Below the pieces are notes generated by a model that did not search any database, had not been told where the DNA came from, and saw nothing but the letters and a program-made list of their open reading frames with translations. Both the position numbers and the translations under genes were made by a program. Positions 2,047 to 20,672 of a stretch of DNA of 20,672 nucleotides are shown in pieces. The first letter of the stretch is position 1. Each line of letters starts with the position of its first letter. This stretch comes from a virus, in IMG/VR virus record IMGVR_UViG_3300030450_000594, positions 1,631 through 22,302 of that record; one strand, written 5' to 3'.

Positions 2047-2539
2047 CTTTATTATTATCCATCTTTTCTTTCACATTTGCGACTTCTTTTTTAAGAATTT
2101 TAGTAAAAATTTTCTTAAATGTTTTTTTGATAAAAGCTAATACTGATTGCATAGCAATACCACCAACCACACTAGCAACTGAAGCTGTACCTGCTGCGAT
2201 TACACTAGAAGCTATAACTTCTGGTGCAGGTATAGGCATTTCACCATAGAAAGGTATAGTAAAGGTAGCTATAGCTTCTTCACTTGGTAAAATTTCTTTG
2301 GTGGCTGGCAGGTTTGTCGGTATTGTTTCTTGTTTTATCTCTAACCCTGCCTCCTTTGAGGATTCTTTTTCTTCTTCAGCAGAAGATCCCTGATCTCCCA
2401 AGCCCGACTTTACCTGTTCCAAACTTGGAAGAAGAACTGGATCTAGATATGGAATCTCTGCCACAGGTGGATAGAAAATTGTTTTAGGCGGTATTAAAAT
2501 ATAATCTGTATCTGGTAAATCAGGCAGATTTATTTCCAA
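2039..2539 (-). CDS. Proline-rich protein with a hydrophobic segment and lysine-rich tail (166 aa)
   Basis: A 166-aa protein in three parts. Residues 1-45 are proline-rich with isoleucine/leucine (LPDLPD, LIPPKT, FYPPVAEIP). Residues 46-90 are acidic and probably disordered (SSAEEEKESSKEAG). From about 107 to 136 runs a long small-residue hydrophobic segment (EVIASSVIAAGTASVASVVG onward), followed by an amphipathic lysine-rich stretch (KKTFKKIFTKILKKE). The last 60 residues look like one membrane-spanning or membrane-inserting helix plus a cationic anchor. Similar proline-rich/hydrophobic proteins occur beside fibre genes in marine cyanophages as I recall, with no known role. The gene follows the 111-aa gene after six bases. 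It could be a lysis accessory protein or a minor virion protein; neither is shown. Confidence 0.6.
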   Translation of the reverse strand: MEINLPDLPDTDYILIPPKTIFYPPVAEIPYLDPVLLPSLEQVKSGLGDQGSSAEEEKESSKEAGLEIKQETIPTNLPATKEILPSEEAIATFTIPFYGEMPIPAPEVIASSVIAAGTASVASVVGGIAMQSVLAFIKKTFKKIFTKILKKEVANVKEKMDNNKGS

Positions 2540-2545
2540 TTCTTT

Positions 2546-2881
2546 TTACCAAGCCACACCTGTTGCTTGTACTGGTGTATTAATTAAATCTATCTCTGCT
2601 TTTAAACTTGCTTCAATAGCAGCAACTTTAGTTGATCCTAGTGTATCTTTAACCCAAGTTACCATTGTTGCACTGTTTGGGGTTTTTGCAGAGGTGTCAT
2701 AAGCAATAAAATCAGAAGGTAGTGATTCAGGTTTTGTAAATACAACTTCGCCTGTACGTCTAGCTTTTTCTGTATTATCATCCATACCTTTTACTCGATA
2801 GACAACATTAGTAAAGTAACCATCTGCAACATCTCTTATACAAGCATTGCCATTGATTTCCCATTCGTAAGTGATAGCCAT
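2546..2881 (-). CDS. Conserved phage protein with C-terminal NTPVxATGxxW motif (111 aa)
   Basis: A 111-aa cytoplasmic protein. The N-terminus (AITYEWEINGNACIRDVADG) and the strand pattern Y-F-T-N-V-V-Y-R-V-K-G-M-D are beta-like. The second half is helical (TMVTWVKDTLGSTKVAAIEA), ending in I-N-T-P-V-Q-A-T-G-V-A-W. I recall small proteins of the same form, with W-V then an E-A-x-L helix and a P-V-x-A-x-G-x-P-W-like tail, encoded near the fibres of many marine phages. Their role is not established; a structural or fibre-associated role fits the position. A good ribosome-binding site (AAAGGA, 2896-2891) supports the ATG at 2881. The 25-base gap upstream follows the stop of the 64-aa gene. Confidence 0.65.
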   Translation of the reverse strand: MAITYEWEINGNACIRDVADGYFTNVVYRVKGMDDNTEKARRTGEVVFTKPESLPSDFIAYDTSAKTPNSATMVTWVKDTLGSTKVAAIEASLKAEIDLINTPVQATGVAW

Positions 2882-2890
2882 AATAATAAA

Positions 2891-2896
2891 TCCTTT
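2891..2896 (-). promoter_or_regulatory. Ribosome-binding site for the 111-aa gene
   Basis: AAAGGA on the minus strand lies nine bases before the ATG at 2881. It is one of the few recognisable Shine-Dalgarno sequences in the window; most other genes here have only A/T-rich leaders. It supports the chosen start. Confidence 0.5.
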
Positions 2897-2906
2897 GTGA
2901 TATAAG

Positions 2907-3101
2907 TTAAGCTGTTTGCTTAACTGTTTGTGTAACTTTCTTTAAAGCTTTTATAGCACCCTGATCTTCAATAAGTGGTTGCTGTAAAGCTCTTAGTTGT
3001 TCTTGTAATTTTGTTATTTGTTGTTCTATCTGTTGTGCTTGAGCAAGGTTCTGGTCAAAACGCTGTTGAGTTTCGTTTAGTTCTTCTTCTAGTGTTGGCA
3101 T
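2907..3101 (-). CDS. Short coiled-coil protein (64 aa)
   Basis: A 64-aa protein that is almost entirely one predicted coiled coil from about residue 3 to 48 (LEEELNETQQRFDQNLAQAQ, then QIEQQITKLQEQLRALQQ), with Leu/Ile at heptad spacing and many Gln and Glu. It ends in a short basic tail (IKALKKVTQTVKQTA). It lies 30 bases after the large repeat fibre and starts in the ATTATTATG context used by that fibre. Short coiled-coil proteins just after fibre genes are often fibre-assembly helpers or trimerisation partners, which is a possibility here. The glutamine-rich composition could also suit a small scaffold. No family was recognised. Confidence 0.55.
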   Translation of the reverse strand: MPTLEEELNETQQRFDQNLAQAQQIEQQITKLQEQLRALQQPLIEDQGAIKALKKVTQTVKQTA

Positions 3102-3131
3102 AATAATTTGATTATATGTTTTCCTAATATA

Positions 3132-6100
3132 CTAAGCACCTTCCAAAACTGCAACTTTAGCTGATAACTCTTGTATTGCTTTGACTAAAGGTGCAATAAT
3201 CTGATTATAATTTAAACCCATTGCAGTGTGTTGTGGTTTGTGAATCGCTCCAAAGTCATCTAAAGTTTTACCTTCTGATTTAATTGCATCTTCAATGTTT
3301 TGTGCAAGTAAACCATAGTGAGTTTTAGATCCTAGCTGCTCATCTTTCCATTTATATGAAACAGGATTTATTTTATTCACAAAATCTAATCCTAAATCAC
3401 AGTTATTGATATCTTTCTTTTCGTTTTCATCAGATGTATTTAAATTATTAACAGCGTATATAGTCGCCCATCTTCTATCCGACGCACCAAGATCGTGGCT
3501 GTTGCTTGCGGCGGGTCTTAAAACTCCATTAATAGCAACTCCAATACTTTCAGTTACTAATTTGTAAGAGCCATTATAATAAAGATATGAGGACATATCA
3601 GAACGTATATAAAGTGTATGAATACTATTATTTGCATCTCTGAACTCAATCAAATTTGAAAGCACTTTTAATGAACCAGTACCCTGATCGCTTATATAAG
3701 AATGTGAGCCATCATGATATAGCCTGAGATCTGCTGAATTTCCAAGTTTTATAGTTTGATTATCGTCACAATAAAGATCGCCAAACCATTTAACACCAGA
3801 AGACTGTGTTTCAAGTTTTAAAGCATTGTCATAAAAAAGTTGTACAAATGAATTAACCTCGTATTTTACTCCCCATTCAGAAGCACCAGCACTTATAAAA
3901 CCGCTCCTATCGCCTCTTACGTATAACGTACCTGTAGCACTGTAAATATTATTATTATTTCCATCGTGCCATAACTGTAGATCTCCACTATTACCCAGTC
4001 TTAATTCACAGTTGTCATCAGCTCTTAGATTTCCATAAAATTGTACGCCAGTGGATTCTGTATTAAGTTTTTTACTACTACTTCCGACTCCAGATATATA
4101 GAAAAGTTCTACACTTCCAAGTTTATTACATATTAAAGAGTTTTCTCGCCCAGCTTGTAAAACAATAGTTGAGTATGTACCTGATGAATTTGTTCTTAAT
4201 ATTAAATTTCCATTACCAGCCTCATCAACATACGAGTGTGTAGCATCATGGAAAAGCCTTAAATCTGCACTAGCCCCAATGTTAAGTCTAGAACCAGAAC
4301 CACCTCCATCTCCATCGTCACAGAAAAGATCACCGTGCCACTTAACTCCTGAAGACAGAGTTTCTAATTTTAAACTGTTGTCATATCTTAACTGTACGGA
4401 TCCATTTTCTGAACAGTTAAGCATTACCTCACTATTAGCTGAATTATTAACTCTAAATTCACTACTTGTAACTCTTAAACCACCTGTACCTGTATCAGCA
4501 ATATATGAGTTACTACCATCATGATGAAGTTGTAAATCATCACTATCTCCAAAAGTAACTTTGCGATTATCTCCAAGTTTTAAATTACCTGTTAATAAAG
4601 CTCCATAACTTGTTGTCTCAAACTTTTTAGATGCAGCCGAGCCACTCATTCCGTGATATAACTCTACGGCTCCGTCTTTAACAAACCTCGCCATGTATTC
4701 AGAACCAGCAATAATTTGTACGGTTGTACTATTGGTTAAAGCTCTAAGGTTTAAATCACCTTGACCATTATCAATGTAGCTATTTGTGGCATCGTGGTGT
4801 AATTGTAGATCTGCTGAAGAACCTAATTTTAAGTATTGGCTGTCATCACAGAAAAGATCACCAACCCATTTTGCTCCAGTACTTTCAGTTGAAAGCTTAG
4901 TAGAACCATCATGTTGAAGTTGTACTCCACTATCAGCAGTTATAAATCCAGAACTTCCGTTATAGTAAAGCTTTAATGCGTCATCACCATCACCGTCAGC
5001 ATTACCAAGTATTAATTGGTCGTTATCGCCATACAAAGCATTTATAGTACTTTTTGTTTCAGCAGCCCCAGCCGCAGCCCAAGTTAATCCACCAGTATTA
5101 CCTGACTGTGCTGTTAATACATAGCCATTTGTTGGAGAGTTAGATACTTTTAGGTTTGCTTCATCTACTACATTATCTGCAATAGTTAAAGCTCCACTTC
5201 CTGTTACTTCACCTGTATGAGTGGCGTTGGTTACTTTAGCTGTATTTGCTGCAACATCTGTCGCAATATCAATCCCGTCAACTGTTCCTGTAACTGTAAG
5301 ATTTCCAGATAGAGTTGCACCTGAGCTGGTTGTTTGAAATTTAGCACTATTGTCATAGTACAGTTTACATCCAGTACTACTATCTTGAGAAAATTCAGCA
5401 ATTTTATGAGCAGCATCTGATTTCTCGTGAAAAATGATATCTGATGCGTAAAATAATAAGCTTCCATTACCAGTTGCATCAATAATAGAATTATTTGAGT
5501 CGTGATATATTTCTAGATCAGCCGAATTACCTAACCTAATTTTGTTTACATCACCTGAGATAGAGTCATCACAAAACAAATCTCCATGCCATTTCACACC
5601 TGCGTTTACACTTTCTATTTTTGTAGAACCGTCAAATTGTAAATGAACTCCTGTATTAGCAGTTATAATACCTCTATTAACAGAAGCGTTATAAAACAGT
5701 TCTAGTTTTTCATTAGTAGTACCACCAAAGATAATACGAATATCATCATTAAAGCTGACACCGTTAGCACCACCTACGGTTGTGCCAGAAGAAGCACTTA
5801 AGACACCATTACCATCAATACTTAAATTAGTACCTACTTTGATACCACCTAAAGTACTGCTTGATGCAGTAGGTAGTGTTGTATCTGTATCATCTGCAAA
5901 TTCTAGTTGTCCTATAGCTGTAGATCCACTACCGCTAACACTTTTAACTTTTAATATTTTATTTACTGCTATCTGATTATCAGGAAGAATAATTGTATAA
6001 GACTGTCCTGCACTATGATTTGGTGATTTAATTTTTACACCATGACTGTTAGCAGAACAATTTAACTGTATAGAACCATCAGTGCTATTGCTGCTGTCAC

Positions 6101-7517
6101 CTTTTATTTCTATACCATTATCTGTTGTAATTAATTTTTCTTTATTGTTTTTATATAGCTTGACTGTATTTGGGTGAAAATCAGCCATCACATTTGATGT
6201 ACCAGACTCTTGAATGATTACATTAGAACCGAAAACTAACAGTGATCCTGTACCTGAATCGTCAATTATAGAGTTTGTATTATCGTGATAAATCTGCAAG
6301 GCTCCACTTGGCCCCATTTTGATTTTACCTCCACCACTGTTAGTGAAGGCATCAGCAAATAAGTCACCACTCCACTTTGCACCCGCTGTATCTGTCTCAA
6401 ATTTTAAAGCACCATCATAATATAATTTAACTGCATTACCACCAAAAGCTTCTATCATCAAACTTTCTGGTGTAGAGTTTGTCCTTTGTAATTTTATAGA
6501 TGTACCAAACAGTAAAAGATCACCTGTACCTGTGTCATCAATTATTGAATTATTGCCATCATGATAAATCTCTAAACCATCATTATTTGTACCAAATATA
6601 GCTTTTACATTATCATCAAAAGTTTGACTTGAACTAGAAGAAGTTGTGGTAGCAAAATCTAACTTACCTGTACCGTCACCAGCATCATTATATGTAACTG
6701 ATATACCTGTTTCAGTATTACCAGTGACCATAGCTCCTACAATATCCTGTACCTGTTCTGTTGTTAATTGTGAAGGAATAGTAGGTAAATTATCTAAGTC
6801 GTTATAAGAAATACCAGAAACAGTACCAGTAAAGGTAGGACTATTTAAAGGTGCTTTTGCTGCTAAAGCAGTAGTTATAGTTGTAGAAAAATCAGCATCA
6901 TCACCTAAAGCAGCAGCTAATTCATTAAGTGTATTTAATGCGTCAGGACTAGAATCGACTAGGTTTGATATAGCAGTTTGTACAAAGGCAGTAGAGGCTA
7001 ATTTAGTTGTATTGTCAGTTGCACTCTGCGTTGTAGTAACACCTGTTATTGTATTACTACCAAAGTTAGGATTTATTTTTGTTCCATCTATAGCAGCGTT
7101 AGCAGCTACATTTGCATTTGTAATAGTGCTTATACCAGTTGTATCTGCCAAAGGCAATCTTGATAAGACAACACCAAAGAAAGCAGTGCCATTGCTGGGA
7201 GCAGAAGCAAAAGTTATCGTACCGTTTACAGAATTTATCGTATAAGCAGTAGAAGGTTCTTGTAGATGACCTGCTAATACGATATGTAGAGATTCAGCAC
7301 TAGCTGGTTTAACAGTAATGTTATCAACTTTTAAATTAAAAGTAGTTAATACACCATTGAAATTACTAGAAATATTATCTAATTTCTGTGCATTTATAGT
7401 ACCTGTATCATACTTTCCTTGTGATACCCATTTAACACCATCAAAAACATATTGCAGACCATTAGCAGCATTATGTATGTCTGTTACTGAAGGACTAGAA
7501 GGAAAGTCAAGAGCCAT
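3132..7517 (-). CDS. Giant repeat-rich tail fibre with C-terminal S74 intramolecular chaperone (1461 aa)
   Basis: A probable receptor-binding fibre. The N-terminus (residues 1-35) has a short P-S-S-P-x-V-x-D then G-L-Q-Y-V-F-D-G-V-K-W motif, seen in many marine phage fibres. Residues about 40-120 form a beta module. At about 150-240 is a phage-fibre repeat (KLASTAFVQTAISNLVDSSP, then T-F-T-G-T-V). Residues about 310-1300 alternate two short motifs: 'D-L-x-L-x-H-D-x-x-x-S-Y-I' (eight copies) and 'L-x-Y-D-x-x-x-K-x-x-T-x-x-x-G-V-K-W-x-G-D-L-F-C-D-D' (about ten variants). The last 110 residues are an S74 chaperone: NTSDENEKKDINN, then V-S-Y-K-W and Y-G-L-L-A-Q-N-I. Ser1362 with Lys1367, five residues on, fits the self-cleavage Ser/Lys pair, so cleavage before Ser1362 would release about 100 residues. 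It starts six bases after the gp17-type gene, and the start lacks a Shine-Dalgarno sequence. Confidence 0.85.
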   Translation of the reverse strand: MALDFPSSPSVTDIHNAANGLQYVFDGVKWVSQGKYDTGTINAQKLDNISSNFNGVLTTFNLKVDNITVKPASAESLHIVLAGHLQEPSTAYTINSVNGTITFASAPSNGTAFFGVVLSRLPLADTTGISTITNANVAANAAIDGTKINPNFGSNTITGVTTTQSATDNTTKLASTAFVQTAISNLVDSSPDALNTLNELAAALGDDADFSTTITTALAAKAPLNSPTFTGTVSGISYNDLDNLPTIPSQLTTEQVQDIVGAMVTGNTETGISVTYNDAGDGTGKLDFATTTSSSSSQTFDDNVKAIFGTNNDGLEIYHDGNNSIIDDTGTGDLLLFGTSIKLQRTNSTPESLMIEAFGGNAVKLYYDGALKFETDTAGAKWSGDLFADAFTNSGGGKIKMGPSGALQIYHDNTNSIIDDSGTGSLLVFGSNVIIQESGTSNVMADFHPNTVKLYKNNKEKLITTDNGIEIKGDSSNSTDGSIQLNCSANSHGVKIKSPNHSAGQSYTIILPDNQIAVNKILKVKSVSGSGSTAIGQLEFADDTDTTLPTASSSTLGGIKVGTNLSIDGNGVLSASSGTTVGGANGVSFNDDIRIIFGGTTNEKLELFYNASVNRGIITANTGVHLQFDGSTKIESVNAGVKWHGDLFCDDSISGDVNKIRLGNSADLEIYHDSNNSIIDATGNGSLLFYASDIIFHEKSDAAHKIAEFSQDSSTGCKLYYDNSAKFQTTSSGATLSGNLTVTGTVDGIDIATDVAANTAKVTNATHTGEVTGSGALTIADNVVDEANLKVSNSPTNGYVLTAQSGNTGGLTWAAAGAAETKSTINALYGDNDQLILGNADGDGDDALKLYYNGSSGFITADSGVQLQHDGSTKLSTESTGAKWVGDLFCDDSQYLKLGSSADLQLHHDATNSYIDNGQGDLNLRALTNSTTVQIIAGSEYMARFVKDGAVELYHGMSGSAASKKFETTSYGALLTGNLKLGDNRKVTFGDSDDLQLHHDGSNSYIADTGTGGLRVTSSEFRVNNSANSEVMLNCSENGSVQLRYDNSLKLETLSSGVKWHGDLFCDDGDGGGSGSRLNIGASADLRLFHDATHSYVDEAGNGNLILRTNSSGTYSTIVLQAGRENSLICNKLGSVELFYISGVGSSSKKLNTESTGVQFYGNLRADDNCELRLGNSGDLQLWHDGNNNNIYSATGTLYVRGDRSGFISAGASEWGVKYEVNSFVQLFYDNALKLETQSSGVKWFGDLYCDDNQTIKLGNSADLRLYHDGSHSYISDQGTGSLKVLSNLIEFRDANNSIHTLYIRSDMSSYLYYNGSYKLVTESIGVAINGVLRPAASNSHDLGASDRRWATIYAVNNLNTSDENEKKDINNCDLGLDFVNKINPVSYKWKDEQLGSKTHYGLLAQNIEDAIKSEGKTLDDFGAIHKPQHTAMGLNYNQIIAPLVKAIQELSAKVAVLEGA
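3690..4820 (-). repeat. Regular protein-coding repeat array in the large fibre
   Basis: Copies four to eight of the 'D-L-x-L-x-H-D-x-x-x-S-Y-I' motif lie about 85-95 codons apart (roughly 275 bases per unit) and alternate with the 'K-x-x-T-x-x-x-G-V-K-W-x-G-D-L' motif. Copies one to three, upstream to about 6580, are spaced less regularly (about 94, 262 and 234 residues). DNA copies are diverged but still visibly related, for example repeated ATCATGATxxA and CATCGTGxxxxA blocks on the plus strand. Unit boundaries are approximate. Confidence 0.6.
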
Positions 7518-7523
7518 AATAAT

Positions 7524-9779
7524 TTAAGGGAATGTAGTCTGACCAGTAGAATAGCCAGCACAGAATTGTATAAAATTATCGTTACTAGCATTAACATTAC
7601 CACTTCCATTATCAGTTAACCACTCAATACCACCTGTTTGATTTCCAGAAACATCAACACCAAGAATTACTATGTGATCGTGGTTATTACCGTTTACTTG
7701 GATTCCATATCTTTGTGGACCAGTACCACTTAAGTCAACAGTTGTACCGCCACACTTACCACCTGATATATAAACATGATTAGATGAAGAAGCAATACTT
7801 ATACCATGATAATAGTTTGATTGAGAAGATCCATTTCCACCAATAGTAGGGTTTGAAATACTTACATTTTGTGTTGGAGAATTTATTAATATTCCGTTTT
7901 GTCTATTGTCTCGACAGTTAACATTAGAAATTTGTACTGTTGAATTTTGTGATGTACCTAAATTAATACCTTGTTCGTAGTTAGTACCAGTAAAACAGTC
8001 GGCTATTGTTATAAAATTACCAGTACCATTTATATTAAATCCATCATAAGCAGCCCTTTCTGCTTCAGCATTTTCAAAGTTTATAAAGTTACCATCCCAA
8101 GTACCAGTTACATAATAATTATCTCTACATCTTATGACAGAGGTTCTTGAAATAAAAACAGTACTAACATCAGCATCTATATAAACACCTCTTACTGACT
8201 GGTTAATTTTATTACCTAACCATTTCCATGTAACACCACCATCAGTAATACTTTGTCCAGTACCAGTAGGTCCACCAGAACTAGCTGAAGTACCTGCAGA
8301 TATACATTCATATATCCTTTCTCTATCATTTTGTACTTTAGTTCCTACAGAGTAAGAAGCACTTGCAGACCAATTATTGGCAGATAATCCCGCAGCAGGA
8401 CTTCCATCAATAATGCAATCAACAATTCTAATTTGATCCATACGGTCAGTAGAACTACTGCCATGTAATTTAATAACATGACTTTCGCCAGAAGAAGTTT
8501 CTGGAATAGATCTAAACTTGCAATTTCTAATCATTGATGAACTTAATCCATCAAAATTCATGCAAAAAGTTATACCATGAAAATGCAAATTTTCGTATAT
8601 ATGTTCTTGCGTACCTGCTTGAGCAACAACATGAATCGCACCATCAGGAGGTTTTACCCCTGCTCCACCTGTATTTTGGTTATTTACGGTTCCACCAATA
8701 AATCCAATATTTCTTATTTCTATTGATCTTGCATTTGTAATACTTATAAAAGTATTATTATCGTTATCATCTCTTTTAAATCTAGCTCCGTAGTTATCAC
8801 TATTTACAACCATTCCGCAAGCTCCTTCAAGAACAACAGCGTTTTTAGTAATAGTTATGGCAGAAGTTAATTTATAAAGTCCCGAAGGAAATATAATTTT
8901 ACCTCCTGTTGCTGGTAAAGCATTTATCGCATTGTTTATAAATCCAGCACAGTTAGTAGTACTTGTAGTTGTACCAGCAGGAATAAAATCATTAATGTTA
9001 ATTATACTATCTAATCTAGATTCAAGAGTTCGTACTTGACCACCACTTGCTGAATTAGCATAAACAATTTTTGAAGCATCTATAGCTGCACTTGCATTAA
9101 CATCAGCATTAACTATATCTAAATTTGCAAGCTTAGATTTTGCTATTGCTGCATTACTATTTATTTCAGAATTAGTTATAGATAAGTCTAATTTAGATTG
9201 TGCTATTGCAGCATTACTAGCAATATTATTATTAGTAAGGTTTGATATGTTTACGTTAGATAAATCACCAACACCAAAAGGTGGATTAGCTTCTATCCAT
9301 TGTGCAGAATCAGTATCAACATAATAAACAAAAGTACGACCAGACACCGTATCAAACCATCTAGCACCATTACTTACGTCAGTAGGTGCAGAAGAGCTAA
9401 CAAAAGTACTAATAAGACTTTCCACATCTGACTTAGTTTCTTGCATACCAAATAAAATATGCTTGCTGTTGTTGTCTAAATCAGATTCAGTTAATACAGA
9501 ACCGTCTTCAAAATCTACTTTAGGTAGTGTTATGTTAGTATTTCTTTTGATTTCTATAACTTCATTTAATGTTGGAAAGTTATTAGCAGTAAATTCTATT
9601 TGTGCTTTTGTAGGAAATGTATAATGTGTATTTCTTGTTTTTAAAACTCCATTAACAGTAACTTGTATATCTGCTTGATCTAAATAATCAAAAGAAATTG
9701 CATAAGGACCAGAAGTATTGCCACTGCTATTATTAGTTGCCGAATGAGTTTGCTTTGAAGGTACTGTATTAAAAGCCAT
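7524..9779 (-). CDS. gp17: T7 gp17-type tail fibre/spike with beta-helix domain (751 aa)
   Basis: An adsorption protein attached to the tail. Residues 1 to about 125 match the T7 tail-fibre N-terminal domain that joins fibre to tail: P-Y-A-I-S-F-D-Y-L, then V-N-G-V-L-K-T, H-Y-T-F, I-E-I-K-R-N-T and L-T-E-S-D-L-D. At about 180-245 is a repeated 'N-A-A-I-A-x-S-K-L' segment, likely a trimeric linker. From about 260 (F-I-P-A-G-T-T-T, then G-K-I-I-F-P-S-G-L-Y-K-L) begins a pectate-lyase-like right-handed beta-helix with many G/N/S turns. A module at about 465-520 (SASYSVGTKVQ, then Y-E-C-I-S-A-G, W-K-W-L-G) looks like an inserted carbohydrate-binding fold. The T7 protein is 553 aa, so this one is longer and enzymatic or binding activity toward host polysaccharide is plausible. 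It starts two bases after the gp16-type gene. Confidence 0.85.
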   Translation of the reverse strand: MAFNTVPSKQTHSATNNSSGNTSGPYAISFDYLDQADIQVTVNGVLKTRNTHYTFPTKAQIEFTANNFPTLNEVIEIKRNTNITLPKVDFEDGSVLTESDLDNNSKHILFGMQETKSDVESLISTFVSSSAPTDVSNGARWFDTVSGRTFVYYVDTDSAQWIEANPPFGVGDLSNVNISNLTNNNIASNAAIAQSKLDLSITNSEINSNAAIAKSKLANLDIVNADVNASAAIDASKIVYANSASGGQVRTLESRLDSIININDFIPAGTTTSTTNCAGFINNAINALPATGGKIIFPSGLYKLTSAITITKNAVVLEGACGMVVNSDNYGARFKRDDNDNNTFISITNARSIEIRNIGFIGGTVNNQNTGGAGVKPPDGAIHVVAQAGTQEHIYENLHFHGITFCMNFDGLSSSMIRNCKFRSIPETSSGESHVIKLHGSSSTDRMDQIRIVDCIIDGSPAAGLSANNWSASASYSVGTKVQNDRERIYECISAGTSASSGGPTGTGQSITDGGVTWKWLGNKINQSVRGVYIDADVSTVFISRTSVIRCRDNYYVTGTWDGNFINFENAEAERAAYDGFNINGTGNFITIADCFTGTNYEQGINLGTSQNSTVQISNVNCRDNRQNGILINSPTQNVSISNPTIGGNGSSQSNYYHGISIASSSNHVYISGGKCGGTTVDLSGTGPQRYGIQVNGNNHDHIVILGVDVSGNQTGGIEWLTDNGSGNVNASNDNFIQFCAGYSTGQTTFP

Positions 9780-9781
9780 AA

Positions 9782-12700
9782 CTATTTACTAAAGGTGTTC
9801 AAAGACTTCTCAAGTGCATTGTAATATTCTTCTTTAATTTTATTCTTTTTGTCTACTCTTTGCTGCAATTCATTTTGACCTCTGCTTTCAAAATATAAGT
9901 TTTCACCATGTTTAATATATGTTCTATTTATCTCAGCCAAATCTAAATATATTTCTTGTGCTGCTTCTTTACCCAAAGCGTTAGTCAATCCATATTCTTC
10001 TACAATACCTGCTCTTCTTGTATAGGCTGGTGATTCCAAATAATTGTTCATAGTTTCAAGTATTGTTTTTTCTCCAAATCCGTCATAATTTAATTTTTGT
10101 GTATTTATAACTTCTTTTAATTTATTGTAATCACCTGTTGTTAATTTAAATGGTGTTATTGTTTCAGTTCCACCTCTAATAGTACCTGTAATTATTTCTT
10201 TGGGTTCTGGTAACATTCTTCCAATCAAAGCTTGTGCTTTGTAAATCTTGTAATTTTTACTTCTACTATGCCTTGATAAAGAAAATAAATCTAGTCCTTT
10301 TTTCTGTGGATATAAAACTGGTTCGTTAGTTATGTGTTCATACATAAAAGGTAAATCATAATTTAGACCCATAAATTTCTCTTGTGATTGGTTAATTATG
10401 TCTCTTAAAGCTCTTTGATACATACTATGTTTATTAAAATCAGGATCATCTATTGAAAGTTCTTGATTTATTACATCACCTTCTCTAACTTTTGTATCGA
10501 CTCTCTGTTGTAAAAGCTGTACTTCTTCATCACTAAAACCCATTATTTTCAAAACGTCTGCTGGTGTTTGTTTTAATCTCGCACCTAAATTTGAGTATGG
10601 TATTAGTCTTCCAACTAATTGTCTGCCTACATATTCTGAAAATTTTTTAACTCTATAGTTTGTAGGACTATCAACTTCGCCTTCATCTCCTTCTCCTACT
10701 TTTGGTACTGCTTGAAATATATTCATCAATTCATTTATTTGTGCTGTAAAACTTCTGTTAAATATATTCCTACCAACTGCACCTACCCAACCAATAGTAA
10801 AATCGTCATAAGGTTTTTCACCAATTACACCAGAAGCGTTGATAAAATCTACCATTAGACGTAGATAACCAGCCATAGGTTCGGGTATATTTTCGTAAGT
10901 TTCATACTCATATACTGGTTCACCATCATCACCAAATAAAGGTTCGCCATCTTCGTCATACTGCAAAGTTCCTTTACTGTATGGTCGCCAACCATTTTTC
11001 CACATAGACTTCCACATAGCAGCACCTTCTGGTTTTTTAAAATCAGGACCACCACCTGTCAATATAATTGGAGGTACAAATTCTTCATCTCTTAATTTTC
11101 TTCTATAGTCCATAGCAGTTGCACCAATCAGCATTGCTAGACCCATACCTAAACGTATTTCACCTCTTGTTTGTTGTGCAATGATTGGATCTGCACTTAA
11201 CAAATCATTTCTTATCTCTGGTAAAAGTACTTGGTTTAATCGGTTTAAATTAGTAAAACTTTTGCCAGTATCAATAATCATAGGTTGATTGATAATAGGA
11301 AGTAATCTTGCGTTTGATTTTAAGATGTTTGTTGGTGCTTTTGTAAAAGAAAAATAAAATCTAGCAAGTGGGTGTTTATTAGCAAATTTATTTAAAGCAG
11401 AAGCAGCTTTGCCAAAATAATCTTCTGTTCTTATATCTTGTGTAAAGGTTATTGTTTTACCAAAATCCTGTGCTTGTTTTAATATTTTTTCTGTTAACGT
11501 ATTTTCTAAAGGTATCTTTCCATTTTCAGCATAGTATTGAAGAATTGAATCGACATGACCTTTTATAAAATTATCTAATTCATCTCCTTGCTTACCAAGT
11601 CTAAGACCTTCATTAAAAGATTCAAAAGTAGCAGCAGCAATAATGTTAGGAGCTTGTATCAGAGCATCAGTAGATGTCATCAATCTCATTGGCAGTCTTA
11701 TACCTTTACCTGTTTTGTCTACAAATCTAGAAGCTAAATTATCGCCATCAGAAGAAATCATAAATCTCTGTCCAGTATCACCTTTAAAGTTTCCAATATT
11801 TACAAAGTTATCTTCCATATCCCAAGACTTTTTCCAAGCTTTAAGACCAAAATTTAAATTAGAATGTAAAGCAAACAAATGTCTTTTAGCACCTTCTAGC
11901 TCTTTTAAATTGTTTGAACCTAAAGCTAACTTTAAAGCTGCTAAATAACTCTGTGCTACTCCTGATATAAAGTTAACTTCTTGAGTAGTAGGTGCAGAAA
12001 GTAGTGCGTTGATACCTACTTCGTTTACTCCTCTAACAAATTTGTCTAAGGCACTTGAAAAACCATCTACTTTTTTCATGGCAACTATCTGTTCTACTTT
12101 GCCATCTGTGCGTTCAATACGATTTGCTAATCTATACAAATCATCTAAATCTCCTGATTCTTGTGCTTCTCTAATACGTTGTTTTAATAATGCTCTAAAA
12201 TCTTTTTTCTCTCTTAATGCTTCATTAAAATCTAAAGTTGATTCTCCTACTTGTTCTGTTGCTTCTCGTTTTTGTGCAGGTGTCATATCCATTACTTCTT
12301 CTGGGCTTTTACCTGCAATACCAGAATCAGGTTTAGCTTGTAAAGTTTTACCTACACGACCAAAAGGAGTTCTGACTGCTTTTATATCCATAGTCAACCA
12401 ATCTTCTACTTTCTCTAAAGCGTCATCTAATTCATCTGCTGCCTGTTCTATTAATTTAAAATCTTTACTATCAAGAGCATTTACATATTTTGTATTTGCA
12501 TTAACAACTCCATCTGAAGCCAACACTACGTTTTGTGCTAAAGCAAAAGCCAACTCATCAGGTGGCCTTTCACCATAAAATTTTATATATTCTTTTGCCA
12601 TAGCTCTTATTCTTTTTGAATTTTTAAGGTCTATAACTCTGTCATCATATAAATTTAATGCACCAAGTTTTGTTTTTAATTGTGACTTTCTACCTTCAAA

Positions 12701-13960
12701 CACATTCTTATCTTTCATTTCTCTAATTGTTTGATCTATACCCTCTTGGAAAGTACCCTTAACTCCTTTGTTTGTATATTGCTGTGGTGTTTTTGTCTTA
12801 TCTCCTAAGTCTTGTTTTTTCTTTTTAGCAACTGTACTAACAGACTCACCAAGATATTTTGCATCTGCTGGTATTTTTAAGACAAGGCCAGAAGTATTAT
12901 CAGGAGATGCTTTAGCACTACCTGTCATTTCTGCAACCATATCTTTTACTTTTTGGTGAACCTTTACACCATGAGCTTTTATTTCTGATTTTGAAAACCC
13001 TTGAGCTTCTAATGCTTCTACAATTCTATCTTCAGCTTTAGATTTACTTTTATTACTTCTAATAATATAAGCAACTTGATCTAGTTCAGATTCAAACTGT
13101 ATGCTTGCCAACCCATATCTAGGCTTCATACGTTGTAAAGACTTAGGTAGTTGGAATACTCTTTTAGGTTTTGTAGTCTCTACTGTTTCTGTTTTATTTG
13201 GTTGTTCATCTACAAACTTCTTTGACTCACTAGCTTGTTTTATTATTTCATCTACTTGTTTCTTTTCTTCTGTAGTAATTGTGTTGTTTATTTCTTGTGC
13301 TGTCTTGCCAGTAAACTTTTTACTAATACCTTCAAGAGCATCTATAGCACCTTTAAAGGTAAGACCAAAACCAGCACCAAGAGTAGCAGAAGTTGTAAAT
13401 TCTGTTGGTGATAATAGTTCTTGTTCGTTTATAAGTTTTTGTATTTGTCTATCTGCTACTGCTGTTGAAGCACCTTGCAAAGCAGCCCTTCTTAAACCTT
13501 TTGCTCCTTTTGCTGTAGATCCAAAAGGTATCATTTGTATTAAACCTGCTGATATAGCTTCTCCATAATTTATTTTGTCTTCACCTCTGGTTTTCTGTGC
13601 AAGTATGCTTGATCCAAAACCAGAACCAAAATTGATAACACCATAAGCACCAACACCAACAGGACCACCTGCTAATAGACCTAAAGTTAATTTATCTGTA
13701 AGAACACCTGCACCAACTTCAAGACCTAAACCTGCTGCTTGTTTGTATGGATCTCCCTTTTCATCTTTAAATGTACCTTCATCACCTTCTGTATAAAAAT
13801 TATTTATAGAGTTTTCTAAATCTACATCTATATCCCAATCTAAAAAACTTTCTGTTTGTTTATATATATCGTTATTTATAGGCTGTAAAAAGTTAGTATC
13901 AGTTTGAAAGCCACTTATAGGTTGACTAGCTTGATTGTTATTTAAATTTGAATCTGTCAT
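9782..13960 (-). CDS. gp16: Internal virion/ejection protein, T7 gp16 type (1392 aa)
   Basis: By position and size (T7 gp16 is 1318 aa) this is the largest core/ejection protein, which leaves the capsid and helps form the channel across the cell envelope. The first 70 residues are polar. Residues about 75-121 are Gly/Ala-rich and hydrophobic (GLGLEVGAGVLTDK, then LLAGGPVGVGAYG) and could insert in the membrane. The middle is helical and charged. At about 650-685 is an 'A-L-L-S-A-P-T-T-Q-E-V-N-F' motif followed by hydrophobic helix, a pattern common in large phage ejection proteins. A further hydrophobic helix lies near 943 (LGMGLAMLIGATAM). Unlike T7 gp16 there is no transglycosylase motif at the N-terminus; that domain is in the preceding gene. 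It begins two bases after the gp15-type stop. Long frames on the other strand are shadows. Confidence 0.8.
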   Translation of the reverse strand: MTDSNLNNNQASQPISGFQTDTNFLQPINNDIYKQTESFLDWDIDVDLENSINNFYTEGDEGTFKDEKGDPYKQAAGLGLEVGAGVLTDKLTLGLLAGGPVGVGAYGVINFGSGFGSSILAQKTRGEDKINYGEAISAGLIQMIPFGSTAKGAKGLRRAALQGASTAVADRQIQKLINEQELLSPTEFTTSATLGAGFGLTFKGAIDALEGISKKFTGKTAQEINNTITTEEKKQVDEIIKQASESKKFVDEQPNKTETVETTKPKRVFQLPKSLQRMKPRYGLASIQFESELDQVAYIIRSNKSKSKAEDRIVEALEAQGFSKSEIKAHGVKVHQKVKDMVAEMTGSAKASPDNTSGLVLKIPADAKYLGESVSTVAKKKKQDLGDKTKTPQQYTNKGVKGTFQEGIDQTIREMKDKNVFEGRKSQLKTKLGALNLYDDRVIDLKNSKRIRAMAKEYIKFYGERPPDELAFALAQNVVLASDGVVNANTKYVNALDSKDFKLIEQAADELDDALEKVEDWLTMDIKAVRTPFGRVGKTLQAKPDSGIAGKSPEEVMDMTPAQKREATEQVGESTLDFNEALREKKDFRALLKQRIREAQESGDLDDLYRLANRIERTDGKVEQIVAMKKVDGFSSALDKFVRGVNEVGINALLSAPTTQEVNFISGVAQSYLAALKLALGSNNLKELEGAKRHLFALHSNLNFGLKAWKKSWDMEDNFVNIGNFKGDTGQRFMISSDGDNLASRFVDKTGKGIRLPMRLMTSTDALIQAPNIIAAATFESFNEGLRLGKQGDELDNFIKGHVDSILQYYAENGKIPLENTLTEKILKQAQDFGKTITFTQDIRTEDYFGKAASALNKFANKHPLARFYFSFTKAPTNILKSNARLLPIINQPMIIDTGKSFTNLNRLNQVLLPEIRNDLLSADPIIAQQTRGEIRLGMGLAMLIGATAMDYRRKLRDEEFVPPIILTGGGPDFKKPEGAAMWKSMWKNGWRPYSKGTLQYDEDGEPLFGDDGEPVYEYETYENIPEPMAGYLRLMVDFINASGVIGEKPYDDFTIGWVGAVGRNIFNRSFTAQINELMNIFQAVPKVGEGDEGEVDSPTNYRVKKFSEYVGRQLVGRLIPYSNLGARLKQTPADVLKIMGFSDEEVQLLQQRVDTKVREGDVINQELSIDDPDFNKHSMYQRALRDIINQSQEKFMGLNYDLPFMYEHITNEPVLYPQKKGLDLFSLSRHSRSKNYKIYKAQALIGRMLPEPKEIITGTIRGGTETITPFKLTTGDYNKLKEVINTQKLNYDGFGEKTILETMNNYLESPAYTRRAGIVEEYGLTNALGKEAAQEIYLDLAEINRTYIKHGENLYFESRGQNELQQRVDKKNKIKEEYYNALEKSLNTFSK

Positions 13961-13962
13961 CT

Positions 13963-16290
13963 TTAATCAGTAAGGAACTGTTTGTAGGAGTTATTTGTAT
14001 AAGCACCCCACGCACCAAACCCTTGTTGATCAAATAAGCGTTTAGCTGCTATTACATTAACAATAGGGTCATATAATTCATCTGTTGATTCAATATCAAA
14101 CAACCTTAACCTTTCTTCTAAAAAGTCATCAATCATATTTAATTGGAAAAGACCTATAGAAAATTCGTTTTTCTTTTGAGGATCTAAACCTGATTTTACT
14201 GTATCAATCATAGGATCACCTGCTGACTCTGCCATTGCTACAGCAGCCATAATCTTTGCATCTGCTGGTTTGAATCCTACAGCTAATAACATTTGTTCTA
14301 TTTTAGTTTGTGGTATTTTTTTAGTCTTATCTACTCCTTTTAATATTTCATCTAGTTTTTCTGTTTGATTTAGTTTACGTTCTCTTGCTTCATCTTCTGG
14401 GGTAGAAGGTGTAAATGCACCGCCTTCAATATTATCTTTCTTACCACCAAATAATAATTCAGTACCAGTTTTTTTAGTTTGGTTATTTTGATTAAAAGGA
14501 TTATTTGTTGAATCAACCTCATTAATAAATGGATTATTGTTAGTATTTTGCTGATTTAAAAACTCTTTAAAACGCTTGTCAACTTCTGACATAATTCCAG
14601 AAGCATCATATTTTCCTGCTTTTATTTTTTTAGCATCAACAAATAATTTAATAGTTTCTTCTTTAATTTTGTCATCTCTATCTTCTTGTTTGATAGTAAG
14701 ATCACTTTCTATCTTTCTAATTGCATTGATATATCTTTGTTCTAAATCATAAAAATCTGCTGTTTCTTGTTTCCCTAAAGTAATTTGACCCATAGCATCT
14801 TTCTCACCAATCATATCTTTTGCTGTTTTTAAATTATTAAATATCTCTGTGCTTCTATTTGTTCTTAATCCTTTACCTAAAGTTTCTTCTATTTCATTTT
14901 TAAGTCTTTGTAAGTTTTGCTTGTCTTCATCTGTAATCGTCACACCTAATGACTTCTCAAATCTAACTAACTCTGTGTATGCTTTTGAAGGGTTTGTATC
15001 ATATACACCTTTAAACCTAAGATCATTTTCAAAATTGGTAAACCAATTATCTCTATCAAAATCTTCTACTTCTATTTTATCTTTTAGAAAATCTAATTCT
15101 TCTGGATAAAGTTCAGCAAGTTTATTTAGTCTATCTCTATTTTGTTTGCCATCTACAACTTGAAAAAATCCATATTGTTTTATCTCATCAAGAAATAGTT
15201 TTTGTCTAGTTTCGGTAGCTTCTCTTTCTTCTTCTTCTCTAAACTTTTCACTAGCATTTAACAAATCAACTTTTAATTTTCTTATATCCTCTTCATAAAA
15301 ATCTTTTAATTTTGATTGTTTTACAGTGCCATCTTTTGTAATTTGTTGTGGCCCTACTTTTAATTCACCAGCATAATCTAAAAAATCTTTTACTTCGTCA
15401 TAACCATCTAATCCTTTATCTTCAAATTCTAAAAATATACTGTTAGCTGTATCACTTACAATTCCAATCATCTTAGAAGGAGATACAGATTCAGTTAATC
15501 CATTTACTGCAAATTCATTTATACTATCTTGCACAATACGTCTTGATTGATCTATACCAGTTTCATTTTCTTCTACTTCTAAAATACCTTTTTCTATTAA
15601 TTCTTGGTTTTCATCTATATTATAAAAAGTACTTTTTAAGGTATCACCAATTTTATTTTCAGCATTTTGTATGTTGTATTCATTATGCGCTTCTTGATGT
15701 GATAAATGTATTTTTTGTAAGGCTCGATTTTGTTGTGGTAAAAAGTATTGATTTACATAAAGTGGTCTAATACCTGATACATCACTTTGTTGTGTAGAAA
15801 TATATTCATTTAATGCTGTTTGAAACTCAGGAGACTCTACACTATATTGTTGTAGTGGTACGTTGAATATTGTGCCATCATTTAATTGTTTTTTTACTGT
15901 GTAGTCATTAAAAAAAGTTTTAGCTTTTGTTTCTGCAATACCACCTAAAGTAATAGCTAATTGTTTTTCTACCCCTGCTCTAAAAAAGATATTACCGCCA
16001 ACTAATTGTCTAGCTGCCTTACTGCCATCTTGTTTTTGTACTGCTTTAATAAGACGTTGTAACTCAGGCTTGCTTGCTTGCATAACCTTTTCCATACCAA
16101 GTTGTTCTTCTTCTTGTTTCTTTTTATCTATTTCTATAGCAAAGTAATTTTGTAATGCAGGGTTTATAAATTTTAAGGTATCTGCTAATTCCATCATGCC
16201 AGTTTTAGGTAAGACACTAGGAGGTGTTACAAAAGTATCTACAGGTCTTGCAGAGGATTGAAAAGCTGTACTTTGAAAACTAGATGTCAT
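13963..16290 (-). CDS. gp15: Internal virion protein, T7 gp15 type, with C-terminal lytic-transglycosylase-like domain (775 aa)
   Basis: An ejection protein (T7 gp15 is 747 aa) that would form the periplasmic part of the DNA-delivery channel. Residues 1 to about 640 are mostly helical and charged, with no membrane span, and contain low-complexity Asn/Gln near 590-610. Residues about 660-775 form a lysozyme-fold/SLT domain: A-M-A-E-S-A-G-D-P with Glu688 as the likely catalytic acid, F-S-I-G-L-F-Q-L-N as the G-L-x-Q motif, then D-P-I-V-N-V-I-A-A-K and Q-G-F-G-A-W-G-A-Y. It should cut peptidoglycan during entry. In T7 this domain starts gp16, so its location here is different. The gene overlaps the gp14-type stop by one base (TAATG) and precedes the gp16-type gene by two. 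Start and identity are well supported by context. Confidence 0.8.
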   Translation of the reverse strand: MTSSFQSTAFQSSARPVDTFVTPPSVLPKTGMMELADTLKFINPALQNYFAIEIDKKKQEEEQLGMEKVMQASKPELQRLIKAVQKQDGSKAARQLVGGNIFFRAGVEKQLAITLGGIAETKAKTFFNDYTVKKQLNDGTIFNVPLQQYSVESPEFQTALNEYISTQQSDVSGIRPLYVNQYFLPQQNRALQKIHLSHQEAHNEYNIQNAENKIGDTLKSTFYNIDENQELIEKGILEVEENETGIDQSRRIVQDSINEFAVNGLTESVSPSKMIGIVSDTANSIFLEFEDKGLDGYDEVKDFLDYAGELKVGPQQITKDGTVKQSKLKDFYEEDIRKLKVDLLNASEKFREEEEREATETRQKLFLDEIKQYGFFQVVDGKQNRDRLNKLAELYPEELDFLKDKIEVEDFDRDNWFTNFENDLRFKGVYDTNPSKAYTELVRFEKSLGVTITDEDKQNLQRLKNEIEETLGKGLRTNRSTEIFNNLKTAKDMIGEKDAMGQITLGKQETADFYDLEQRYINAIRKIESDLTIKQEDRDDKIKEETIKLFVDAKKIKAGKYDASGIMSEVDKRFKEFLNQQNTNNNPFINEVDSTNNPFNQNNQTKKTGTELLFGGKKDNIEGGAFTPSTPEDEARERKLNQTEKLDEILKGVDKTKKIPQTKIEQMLLAVGFKPADAKIMAAVAMAESAGDPMIDTVKSGLDPQKKNEFSIGLFQLNMIDDFLEERLRLFDIESTDELYDPIVNVIAAKRLFDQQGFGAWGAYTNNSYKQFLTD

Positions 16291-16850
16291 TAGTCTTGTT
16301 TAAGAGAAACGTAAGAATTAAGACCTGATGTGGCTACATTAAGTAAAGTACTCGCTAAAGAAGGAATTTGGTTATAAGCTTGATTTACATTGCTTTGTAA
16401 TTGATTTATTCGATTCTTATAATCTGCTTCAGTTGCAAGTATATTTCTTTCATATTGTCTTCTATAAGATTCTAATGATTGATTTACTGATTCTCTATAG
16501 TTTGCAGCTTGTCTTTCTTGATCCATTAATAATAATCCTATAGTTGTACCTGCCTGTTCTGAAGCTATTATAGATCGACTTGCTTGCAAAGCATCAATAT
16601 TTTTTGCAAATATATCTTGTGCTTTAGATTTTTCTGTTTCTGATTTTTGTTCTGCTAGTGCTTGTTGCTGTAATCTTTTTGAATCTTCTGCTGATTGTTG
16701 AGCTATTAATGCTTGATTATATGTTTGATTAGCTGCACTTATAGCAGCAGATCTTTGAACAAAAGCATTAGCAGCAGTAAGACCTAAACCTGCATAAAAT
16801 AAAGGTGCTGCGGAACCTAATCCTAATGCTGGTAACGCTGCAACACACAT
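16290..16850 (-). CDS. gp14: Internal virion protein, T7 gp14 type (186 aa)
   Basis: The smallest ejection protein, thought to form the outer-membrane part of the delivery channel in T7-like phages. Length 186 aa is near T7 gp14 (196). It begins M-C-V-A-A-L-P-A-L-G, like the M-C-W-A-A-A start of T7 gp14, followed by a Gly/Ala-rich hydrophobic helix to about residue 32. A long helical region rich in Ala, Gln and Glu follows (SAEDSKRLQQQALAEQKSET, then ATEADYKNRINQLQSNVNQA). A short Ser/Leu-rich tail ends it. It abuts the gp13-type gene exactly (TAG then ATG) and overlaps the gp15-type start by one base. The N-terminal Cys-containing start, size and position agree. Confidence 0.8.
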   Translation of the reverse strand: MCVAALPALGLGSAAPLFYAGLGLTAANAFVQRSAAISAANQTYNQALIAQQSAEDSKRLQQQALAEQKSETEKSKAQDIFAKNIDALQASRSIIASEQAGTTIGLLLMDQERQAANYRESVNQSLESYRRQYERNILATEADYKNRINQLQSNVNQAYNQIPSLASTLLNVATSGLNSYVSLKQD

Positions 16851-17303
16851 CTAGGCGATCCTCAGAAATTCGTAGAAAGGTTTTTTTTGATAACCATAAC
16901 TCTCATGCAACTTTATAAAAGTAAAACCAAGAGCTTTCAACCATTTTATAGCAGAAGTGTTTTCTGCATATACATAATTATAAAGTATTTTATAAGACTC
17001 AAGTAGATTATCAACCCATTTTCTGCCTTGTCTTATTAATTGTATTCTATATTTTTTATTATCAAACAATTCATCTGTAGCAACAAACCATATACAACCA
17101 TCTTTCTGTACACCACATAATCCTATTGGCTGGTCATTATCATCAGCAACAGTCATATTAGTTTTACTACCTAAGAAGGTATAACTAAGAGCATCTTCTG
17201 GACTTAAGCCTGTTTGATATAAGGCTTCAATCTTATCCATAACTCTCATGTTATCTACTACATATTTAAAATCTTTGATATTTGATTTTCTTAAATATCC
17301 CAT
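16851..17303 (-). CDS. gp13: GNAT-fold protein, T7 gp13 type (150 aa)
   Basis: A protein with acetyltransferase-like fold at the T7 gene 13 position. Visible features are R-K-S-N-I-K-D-F at the N-terminus, the core G-L-C-G-V-Q-K-D-G-C-I-W-F-V-A-T-D-E-L-F (residues 61-80) and V-Y-A-E-N-T-S-A-I-K-W-L-K-A-L-G-F (111-127). These parallel T7 gp13, which has C-W-F-V-T-S-D and N-Y-V-W-V-G-N-T-S-H-I-R-F-L-K. The usual acetyl-CoA loop (Q/R-x-x-G-x-G/A) is not clearly present; only I-R-Q-G-R-K is in the right place. Catalysis is therefore doubtful and a virion-assembly role, as for T7 gp13, is more likely. It overlaps the gp12-type stop by one base (TAATG) and abuts the next gene. Confidence 0.78.
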   Translation of the reverse strand: MGYLRKSNIKDFKYVVDNMRVMDKIEALYQTGLSPEDALSYTFLGSKTNMTVADDNDQPIGLCGVQKDGCIWFVATDELFDNKKYRIQLIRQGRKWVDNLLESYKILYNYVYAENTSAIKWLKALGFTFIKLHESYGYQKKPFYEFLRIA

Positions 17304-20008: not shown

Positions 20009-20010
20009 AA

Positions 20011-20622
20011 TTATCTAATTAAAGCACTTGAAGGGCTATATGTATCAAATACACTTGTAAGAGAAGGATCACCTCTCAATAGGTTGTGATCTGCATTAGC
20101 TAAATCTGTCTCAACAAGAATAGCTCTTGCTTTAATTTCATCTTGTTTTGTATAAGTTCTCAAGCCTTCATCTCCTACTAATCTATCTACAAAAAATCTA
20201 GCTGCCCTAATAGTTATGTATCTTCTAGCTTGTTCTGGTATTTCAGCAAAGGTTCTAAAATATACAACAGTACAAGTTAAGTCTTCATCAAATTCATATC
20301 TATTATTTTGTCGATCATAAAGTTTTAATCCACGTTGTACTGCATCTATTGTTGGGTGTTGATGAATATTTGGATCAATTCTTAAAACATCATTACCTAT
20401 ATTTATATGGTTATTACTAGAATCTCTTGATTGTGTTACATCTATTTCTGTATTAAATGACCAACCTTCAGATTGTACCTCTTTATTTATTTCAGCCAGA
20501 GTAGATTGAGCAATGACAGCATCAGCAGGTAATGTTCCTGACAAAGTATTTATAGGTGTTTCACCTATAGCAGCCATCATTATATTGACAGCTTCAAGTT
20601 CAGTGGTTGCAGCTACAGTCAT
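20011..20622 (-). CDS. gp11: Tail tubular protein A, T7 gp11 type (203 aa)
   Basis: The adaptor ring joining the portal to the gp12 nozzle. Length (203 aa) matches T7 gp11 (196). Signature stretches are E-A-V-N-I-M-M-A-A-I-G-E-T-P-I-N-T-L near residues 10-27, then E-I-N-K-E-V-Q-S-E-G-W-S-F-N-T-E, L-R-I-D-P-N, and R-G-L-K-L-Y-D-R-Q-N-N-R-Y-E-F. A helical segment R-R-Y-I-T-I-R-A-A-R-F-F-V follows near 140. It heads the visible part of the virion operon. No ribosome-binding site is close to its ATG; the leader is A/T-rich. The major capsid gene would be expected just off the right edge. Confidence 0.9.
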   Translation of the reverse strand: MTVAATTELEAVNIMMAAIGETPINTLSGTLPADAVIAQSTLAEINKEVQSEGWSFNTEIDVTQSRDSSNNHINIGNDVLRIDPNIHQHPTIDAVQRGLKLYDRQNNRYEFDEDLTCTVVYFRTFAEIPEQARRYITIRAARFFVDRLVGDEGLRTYTKQDEIKARAILVETDLANADHNLLRGDPSLTSVFDTYSPSSALIR

Positions 20623-20672
20623 TGTTTAATACTTTTTTATTTTAAGGGAATCCCTCCCACCTTTCGTTTTTT
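20623..20672 (-). other. Leader of gp11-type gene, possibly including the end of the upstream gene
   Basis: This 50-base edge segment contains a G-rich block on the minus strand (GGTGGGAGGGATTCCCTT) with a small palindrome AGGGA/TCCCT at 20643-20653. All three minus-strand frames stay open to the edge before reaching stops at 20626-20645, so the end of an upstream gene may be included, but none is recognisable. The palindrome can form only a four- to five-bp stem with no U-run, so a terminator comparable to that after T7 gene 10 is not supported. Confidence 0.3.

Follow-up and report, generated by a model that had tools for sequence, protein, structure and literature searches.

Tail fibres of ocean phages are long, change fast and are often annotated only as hypothetical proteins, traits that make it hard to study how phages track changes in host surfaces. 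One such fibre lies in the stretch of DNA analysed here, the 20,672-nt window that covers positions 1631–22302 of a virus record of 22,302 bases (IMG/VR IMGVR_UViG_3300030450_000594), and it alternates two sequence motifs along 1461 residues. The locus raises the question of how a fibre built from repeats comes to differ between phages. The initial annotation proposed that in-frame recombination could lengthen or shorten the regular part of the array. Our analysis indicates that this reading should give way to one in which phages trade fibre units and fibre ends with one another, mostly at conserved halves of the unit.

A long fibre in a T7-like tail module

The window holds the tail module of a T7-like phage, with minus-strand genes in T7 order: tail tubes (which match PHROG tail proteins), a gp13-like protein, internal virion proteins, a 751-aa protein and the 1461-aa fibre. 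PHROG tail-fibre families match the 1461-aa protein, at about residues 124–267. Because the nearest cultured relative of the tail-tube protein is that of Prochlorococcus phage P-SCSP2 (75% identity), the host is likely to be picocyanobacterial. The gene encodes the long fibre of this marine T7-like phage. The 751-aa protein contains the T7 tail-fibre N-terminal domain and is probably the tail anchor for the long fibre. T7 gp17 carries this domain (PF03906) in the same protein, whereas here it is absent from the 1461 residues and present in the neighbour. Cyanophage P-SCSP1u also differs from this phage, in that anchor and units form one protein (as seen for the sister phage P-SCSP1c) and are not divided between two genes.

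The fibre is built from a unit with two conserved halves

The repeat described in the initial annotation is real. The pattern [LI]x[IL]xHD occurs eight times in the fibre (mean 0.05 and maximum 2 in 1000 shuffles), KxxTxxxG[VA] also eight times (mean 0.08, maximum 2) and the strict core [VA]KWxGDL five times. Searching the window fibre with a profile of its five regular units gave ten matches, all covering the half with the second motif, in agreement with the 'about ten' copies claimed for that motif once degenerate copies are counted. Each full unit consists of a half A with the His-Asp motif, a variable stretch V and a half B with KxxTxxxG; the fibre comprises eight full units of 77–94 aa and two compact units, which the profile recognizes by the B half only. 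The histidines of the His-Asp motifs are residues 319, 411, 672, 908, 999, 1090, 1184 and 1268, giving spacings of 92, 261, 236, 91, 91, 94 and 84, so that copies four to eight do lie about 90 residues apart, as described. The early spacing is irregular because the two compact units, which are without V, and two other modules intervene: the long gaps contain the compact units at residues 590–655 and 835–894 and the profile-negative stretches 475–589 and 743–834. Of the earlier suggestion that units there were deleted or merged, 'merged' is a fair description of the compact units. The parts of the gene and its neighbour are as follows.

7524–9779, minus strand: 751-aa protein upstream of the fibre, with T7 tail-fibre N-terminal domain (Pfam)
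3132–7517, minus strand: whole fibre gene, 1461 aa, a single ATG-to-stop open reading frame
6618–7517, minus strand: N-terminal part, residues 1–300, without unit match; presumably the attachment side
6327–6602, minus strand: full unit 1, residues 306–397 (profile match)
6096–6326, minus strand: full unit 2, residues 398–474 (profile match)
5751–6095, minus strand: module without unit match, residues 475–589 (profile search)
5553–5750, minus strand: compact unit, residues 590–655 (profile on B half; A-like half by eye)
5292–5543, minus strand: full unit 3, residues 659–742 (profile match)
5496–5516, minus strand: switch point relative to contig G001, residues 668–674, within the His-Asp motif of unit 3 (codon alignment)
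5016–5291, minus strand: module without unit match, residues 743–834 (profile search)
4836–5015, minus strand: compact unit, residues 835–894 (profile on B half; A-like half by eye)
4563–4835, minus strand: full unit 4, residues 895–985 (profile match)
4531–4675, minus strand: isolated patch of 145 nt that begins in a B half and extends to the His-Asp motif after it, with 97.2% identity to G001
4290–4562, minus strand: full unit 5, residues 986–1076 (profile match)
4008–4289, minus strand: full unit 6, residues 1077–1170 (profile match)
3756–4007, minus strand: full unit 7, residues 1171–1254 (profile match)
3516–3755, minus strand: full unit 8, residues 1255–1334 (profile match)
3435–3515, minus strand: short link with PAASNSHDLGASDRRWATIYA, residues 1335–1361
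3135–3434, minus strand: Peptidase_S74 intramolecular chaperone and C-terminal end, residues 1362–1461

Across 343 distinct full units from related loci, the consensus is GxSxDLQIYHDGSNSYI-xx-TGxL for half A and NGAVELYYDNSKKLETTSxG for half B, and Gly 5, His 14, Thr 68 and Gly 72 are 96–100% conserved. V accounts for 36% of unit residues; at the DNA level, unrelated units are 59% identical in A, 55% in B and 43% in V. The two halves may themselves be related, a similarity that is suggestive only (hhalign P 0.00013, probability 54%). Comparison of the gene with itself yielded direct repeats of at least 66 nt that are 61–79% identical to the reference copy, and Tandem Repeats Finder, run with periods up to 500, reported no array of the unit period in the gene; judged by these identities, the copies within the gene are old at the DNA level.

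The unit has no match in Pfam-A or NCBIfam, and a dedicated model would therefore make many such genes readable; the only part that Pfam matched is the S74 chaperone (PF13884; residues 1362–1416, E 1.7e-12, 47.9 bits against a cut-off of 22). S119, D120 and K124 in the numbering of the aligned piece, which we take to be the catalytic residues of the self-cleaving site, are invariant in 14 S74 sequences including the query, as is an isoleucine. The C-terminal S74 domain with its invariant S-D, K and I resembles that of endosialidase-type fibres carrying PF13884; here, however, it is a cap only, and the same fibre body can carry a differing S74 domain or none detectable by Pfam.

In a tblastn search of 50,697 phage records, 257 matched some part of the fibre, 118 of them named Synechococcus phage, Prochlorococcus phage or Cyanophage; among the rest are 29 Escherichia and 27 Klebsiella phages, for which the chaperone or other modules may account for the match. 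The units are carried behind many different N-termini. Among 88 complete distinct open reading frames with a unit match, the window included, the number of full units ranges from 0 to 12: seven have none, 24 have one, 21 have two, six have three, eight have four, seven have five, six have six, six have seven, two have eight and one has 12. In the long fibres L082 and L083, the head-fibre family PF11133 is matched three and four times, respectively, which indicates that other repeat modules are mixed in among the units.

Most units have their closest relatives in other genes

Near relatives vary in fibre length and unit content, as the initial annotation anticipated, but the data do not support recombination within the gene as the cause. 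We compared 12 pairs with at least 88% identity in the first 300 nt, some genes belonging to two pairs. Five of the pairs differ in the number of full units, so repeat number is not constant among close relatives; in the closest pair it is eight in both, with changed content. For none of the eight full units of the window fibre does the nearest DNA relative lie within the same gene. When the fibres were pooled (326 units, 325 with a match), the best match lay in another gene for 311 of the 325 units and in the same gene for 14, against 4.4 expected by chance, which implies that duplication within a gene happens but is rare or old. At 80% identity, the tally is six within a gene against 205 between genes.

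Inside units, exchanged segments nearly always end in the conserved halves

From 103 fibre genes with at least two unit matches, 89 remained after removal of contained copies. Taking as a block any stretch of at least 100 nt with at least 92% identity, we found 58 blocks common to these genes, none of them within one gene. Removal of gene ends and repeats of the same end left 94 block ends; 56 of these fall inside units (21 in A, 34 in B, 1 in V), and 38 fall outside recognized units and are unclassed. Because matches can run on into conserved sequence, we passed simulated exchanges, placed at randomly chosen aligned positions, through the program that had called the real ends. The simulated ends fell in V in 34% of cases, in 35% on repeating the simulation and in 36% when the partner was the one that matched best among up to 60, in which case matches overran by 15 nt on average. 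Compared with the simulation, one V end in 56 has a p of about 1e-9; block ends are not independent, and counting by gene pairs gives a V end in 1 of 27 (p about 1e-4). Where exchanged pieces end inside units, the end thus lies in one of the two conserved halves and hardly ever in V.

Interior blocks exceeded the identity of the same phages' downstream gene in 33 of the 40 cases in which both phages have that gene and did not in the other seven. More than 150 nt separated the block from its matching position in 29 of 43 interior blocks. A whole V stretch was carried by 16 of the 58 blocks, and six of the 58 run from A to B across V at 92% identity or more.

Individual comparisons show that exchanged segments range in size from a fraction of a unit to the entire distal half, chaperone included. 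The closest relative, contig G001, is 96.8% identical to the window over 5371–9780, 96.8% over 2193–3172 and 96.6% over 16336–20672. Within the fibre, DNA identity is 96–100% in each 30-residue bin of residues 1–660. The switch occurs at residues 668–674, inside the LEIYHD of unit 3, and from residue 691 onwards identity is 31–80% per bin, except for a 99% bin at 961–990 that belongs to the isolated 145-nt patch. The G001 fibre ends in a differently sequenced S74 domain, its last 291–301 nt being 91–92% identical to the short fibre L173, and the end of the window fibre is 95.6% identical to L006 over 435 nt. In both G001 and L173, the last B half joins S74 directly, with no separate tip domain. 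Two further long fibres, in G007 (1956 aa) and G008 (1879 aa), have in common a 246-nt block at 98% identity that extends from one His-Asp motif to the next.

The G001 fibre gene (L079) contains a short run of N near the second unit, with near-perfect identity to the window on both sides. An apparent 6-residue insertion in G001 was considered as a repeat change and rejected, as the stretch is this run of N.

Two isolates differ in the distal fibre

The same pattern occurs in cultured phages. P-SSP2 and P-SSP3, whose hosts by record are Synechococcus WH8017 and Prochlorococcus MIT9312, are 99.6% identical over 6011 nt, of which the last 2081 nt are the start of the fibre, and again 99.6% identical over 1947 nt further on; across the roughly 8 kb compared outside the exchanged stretch, the divergence is thus about 0.4%. 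The P-SSP2 fibre has 1295 aa, five full units and an S74 domain, and that of P-SSP3 (L239) has 1012 aa, two full units and no S74 match by Pfam. Their replaced distal parts have one common block, 151 nt at 96% identity, running from B to A. The main switch lies outside any recognized unit, some 25 residues before a His-Asp motif, and the replaced stretch in P-SSP3 includes two small genes behind the fibre that are absent there in P-SSP2, so the exchange is not of units alone. Since isolates show it too, the pattern must be more than a metagenome artefact, and a change in content can evidently bring a change in unit number with it. Near its C-terminus, the P-SSP3 fibre also resembles the P-SCSP1 fibre (79 nt, 88.6%). 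In six P-SCSP1 isolates (host MED4), the fibre has 1079 aa in five and 1083 aa in one, a nearly constant length that fits constancy on a constant host and proves nothing.

Exchange between phages as the probable source of fibre variation

The fibre is a rod of related units of about 85 residues (A, V and B), capped by S74, and phages exchange its segments, with those ends that fall inside units lying almost always in the conserved halves; the account as a whole, including its bearing on folding and binding, we regard as probable. Units are thus replaced by those of other phages, often at another position in the rod, and unit number and order change as a by-product. The conserved halves may be the places at which a chimeric rod remains foldable, and perhaps also those at which DNA similarity permits crossing-over; with DNA identities between unrelated units of only 59% (A) and 55% (B), similarity could be too low to direct crossovers, and selection may direct them instead. 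The exchanged V stretches, together with the distal end, would change the cell surface that is bound. Receptor range, named in the initial annotation as something the array could alter, is a likely reason for the variation of the fibre; that the swaps alter it is something we infer.

In-frame growth and shrinkage by recombination among a fibre's own units could also change its length, and complete relatives do span 0–12 full units, with unequal numbers in five of 12 close pairs and five against two full units in P-SSP2 and P-SSP3; some in-gene similarity exists as well (14 of 325 units against 4.4 expected), although it is old. The absence of within-gene blocks among the 58 at high identity, the 6:205 ratio at 80% and the 0 of 8 window units closest to their own gene make this account improbable, and the first of these counts together with the 311 of 325 units matched elsewhere rules it out as the main process. 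A fibre maintained by slippage in a tandem array would need recent, near-identical units in one gene, which neither these blocks nor the window units provide. Fast divergence of V by mutation, through a diversity-generating system or positive selection, could make conserved halves mimic block ends, and V is indeed the least conserved part between units; but six of the 58 blocks cross V at 92% or more and 29 of 43 interior blocks sit at shifted positions, leaving this account very little probability. The proteins scanned, a subset of the open reading frames of a fragmentary record, show no sign of a diversity-generating retroelement (reverse transcriptase and template repeat beside the variable region). 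Assembly errors at conserved sequence in short-read metagenomes might likewise produce mosaics, given that all compared contigs except the isolates are metagenomic and that G001 has a run of N in this gene. P-SSP2 and P-SSP3 rule this out as a general cause, and misjoining should be unable to give a block with different neighbours on both sides unless that block was already shared; we give this explanation the least credence of all.

A bolder form of the preferred reading, in which segments are exchanged at the conserved halves, is that marine cyanophage-like viruses draw on a common stock of units, each an interchangeable cassette that contacts the receptor. In such a combinatorial rod, several different V stretches would contact the host jointly and replacements would enter by way of the conserved halves, a situation resembling the reassortment of modular surface antigens. 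We hold this as a tentative possibility. The units might otherwise be a passive spacer, with receptor binding elsewhere, in other modules or at a tip, and with repeats exchanged because they are similar and harmless. The conserved halves do make up most of the unit, the whole distal end is exchangeable together with its chaperone, and the fibre has other modules at residues 475–589 and 743–834. However, G001 and L173 have no separate tip domain, their last B half joining S74, and exchange can move a whole V stretch, as in 16 of the 58 blocks; a purely passive role seems to us the less likely reading.

Going by the title of a study of T-even gp37, conserved fibre motifs are reportedly the sites at which phages swap adhesin segments. 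Exchange between conserved motifs is alike in the two systems, here with 1 of 56 ends in V, as a matter of mechanism and not of kinship; unlike gp37, this fibre has a built-in chaperone domain, and what is exchanged is often a repeat unit that recurs many times along one fibre. The principle has precedents in T-even phages (by that title) and in general surveys of fibre mosaicism (PMC10684548). In its accessible part, the survey of Smug et al. 2023 (PMC10684548) describes recent fragment shuffling in tail fibres and spikes, as found here, at the level of protein domains and names no such unit, whereas unit and exchange positions are resolved here at the DNA level. Pelagimyophages have hypervariable host-recognition islands, which, in the part of the source available, are not described as containing this unit (PMC7029224). 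The unit is named nowhere among the literature matches listed, a search that covered mostly open-access papers; within that coverage, what is new is the definition of the unit, how widely it occurs and the mapping of the exchange positions. Together, a defined unit and mapped exchange positions make the question of host tracking testable, for example in P-SSP2 and P-SSP3, which differ distally.

Predicted structure and the His-Asp pair

A monomer model of three units, based on 43 sequences (mean pLDDT 77.6, pTM 0.49), consists of strands only, about eight short ones per unit. Used as query in a structure search of the PDB, it gave no match at E <= 0.001 among 304; the list was topped by Rhs proteins with poor TM-scores. 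The best Z by VIA-align was 5.2, and T4 gp34 and the T5 L-shaped fibre scored 4.0–4.5, values that depend on a monomer model with a pTM of 0.49. In BFVD there were 78 matches at E <= 0.001, and the named ones among the best 50 of 78 are mostly cyanophage proteins. By sequence, the fibre is related to P-SCSP1u gp28 (PDB 8I4M; E 1.3e-19), which has two units; residues 462–544, overlapping the module at 475–589, resemble it (chain 8i4m_e). In the accessible part of its description, gp28 forms trimers that dock on a T7-like tail, with the distal part unresolved (PMC10575957). Because this relative forms trimers, the window fibre is likely also a trimer, with three chains per rod.

The initial annotation further suggested that the His-Asp pairs, facing the same way in each unit of such a trimer, might bind metal ions along the shaft. 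Histidine is nearly invariant (96% of the 343 units), and iron-binding His-rich phage fibres are known, T4 gp37 among them, that use HxH according to the part of the source available (PMC11705849). The residue after the histidine is less constant, with 66% Asp and 17% Asn (HD 223, HN 56, HS 32), so that Asn or Ser replaces Asp in 88 of 343 units. HxH boxes, present in gp37, are absent from the 1461-aa fibre and occur in 6 of 343 units. At the corresponding position of half B, Tyr or Phe is far commoner than His (YD 171, FD 39, HD 32, HN 28), in a half-to-half alignment that is only suggestive. In the first unit of the model, His ends a strand and Asp starts the predicted turn to the next. This pattern of conservation argues against Asp as an obligatory ligand, and metal binding by the pair along the fibre is unlikely.

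Other variation in the tail module

The large internal virion protein at 9782–13960 has 1392 aa in the window, and a protein with the same start in contig G010 (L084) has about 1390 aa. That of G001 has about 1180 aa, no DNA match to the window being reported over 9780–13976, and is flanked in G001 by sequence 97% identical to the window. At the gp13 position (16851–17303), the encoded protein matches T7 gp13 (PF11090) and also, weakly and below cut-off, acetyltransferase families. The anchor-like 751-aa protein ends in FIQFCxGYSTGQTxFP, an ending common to its relatives in G001, G002, G007 and G008, so that a constant C-terminus is seen in this protein too.
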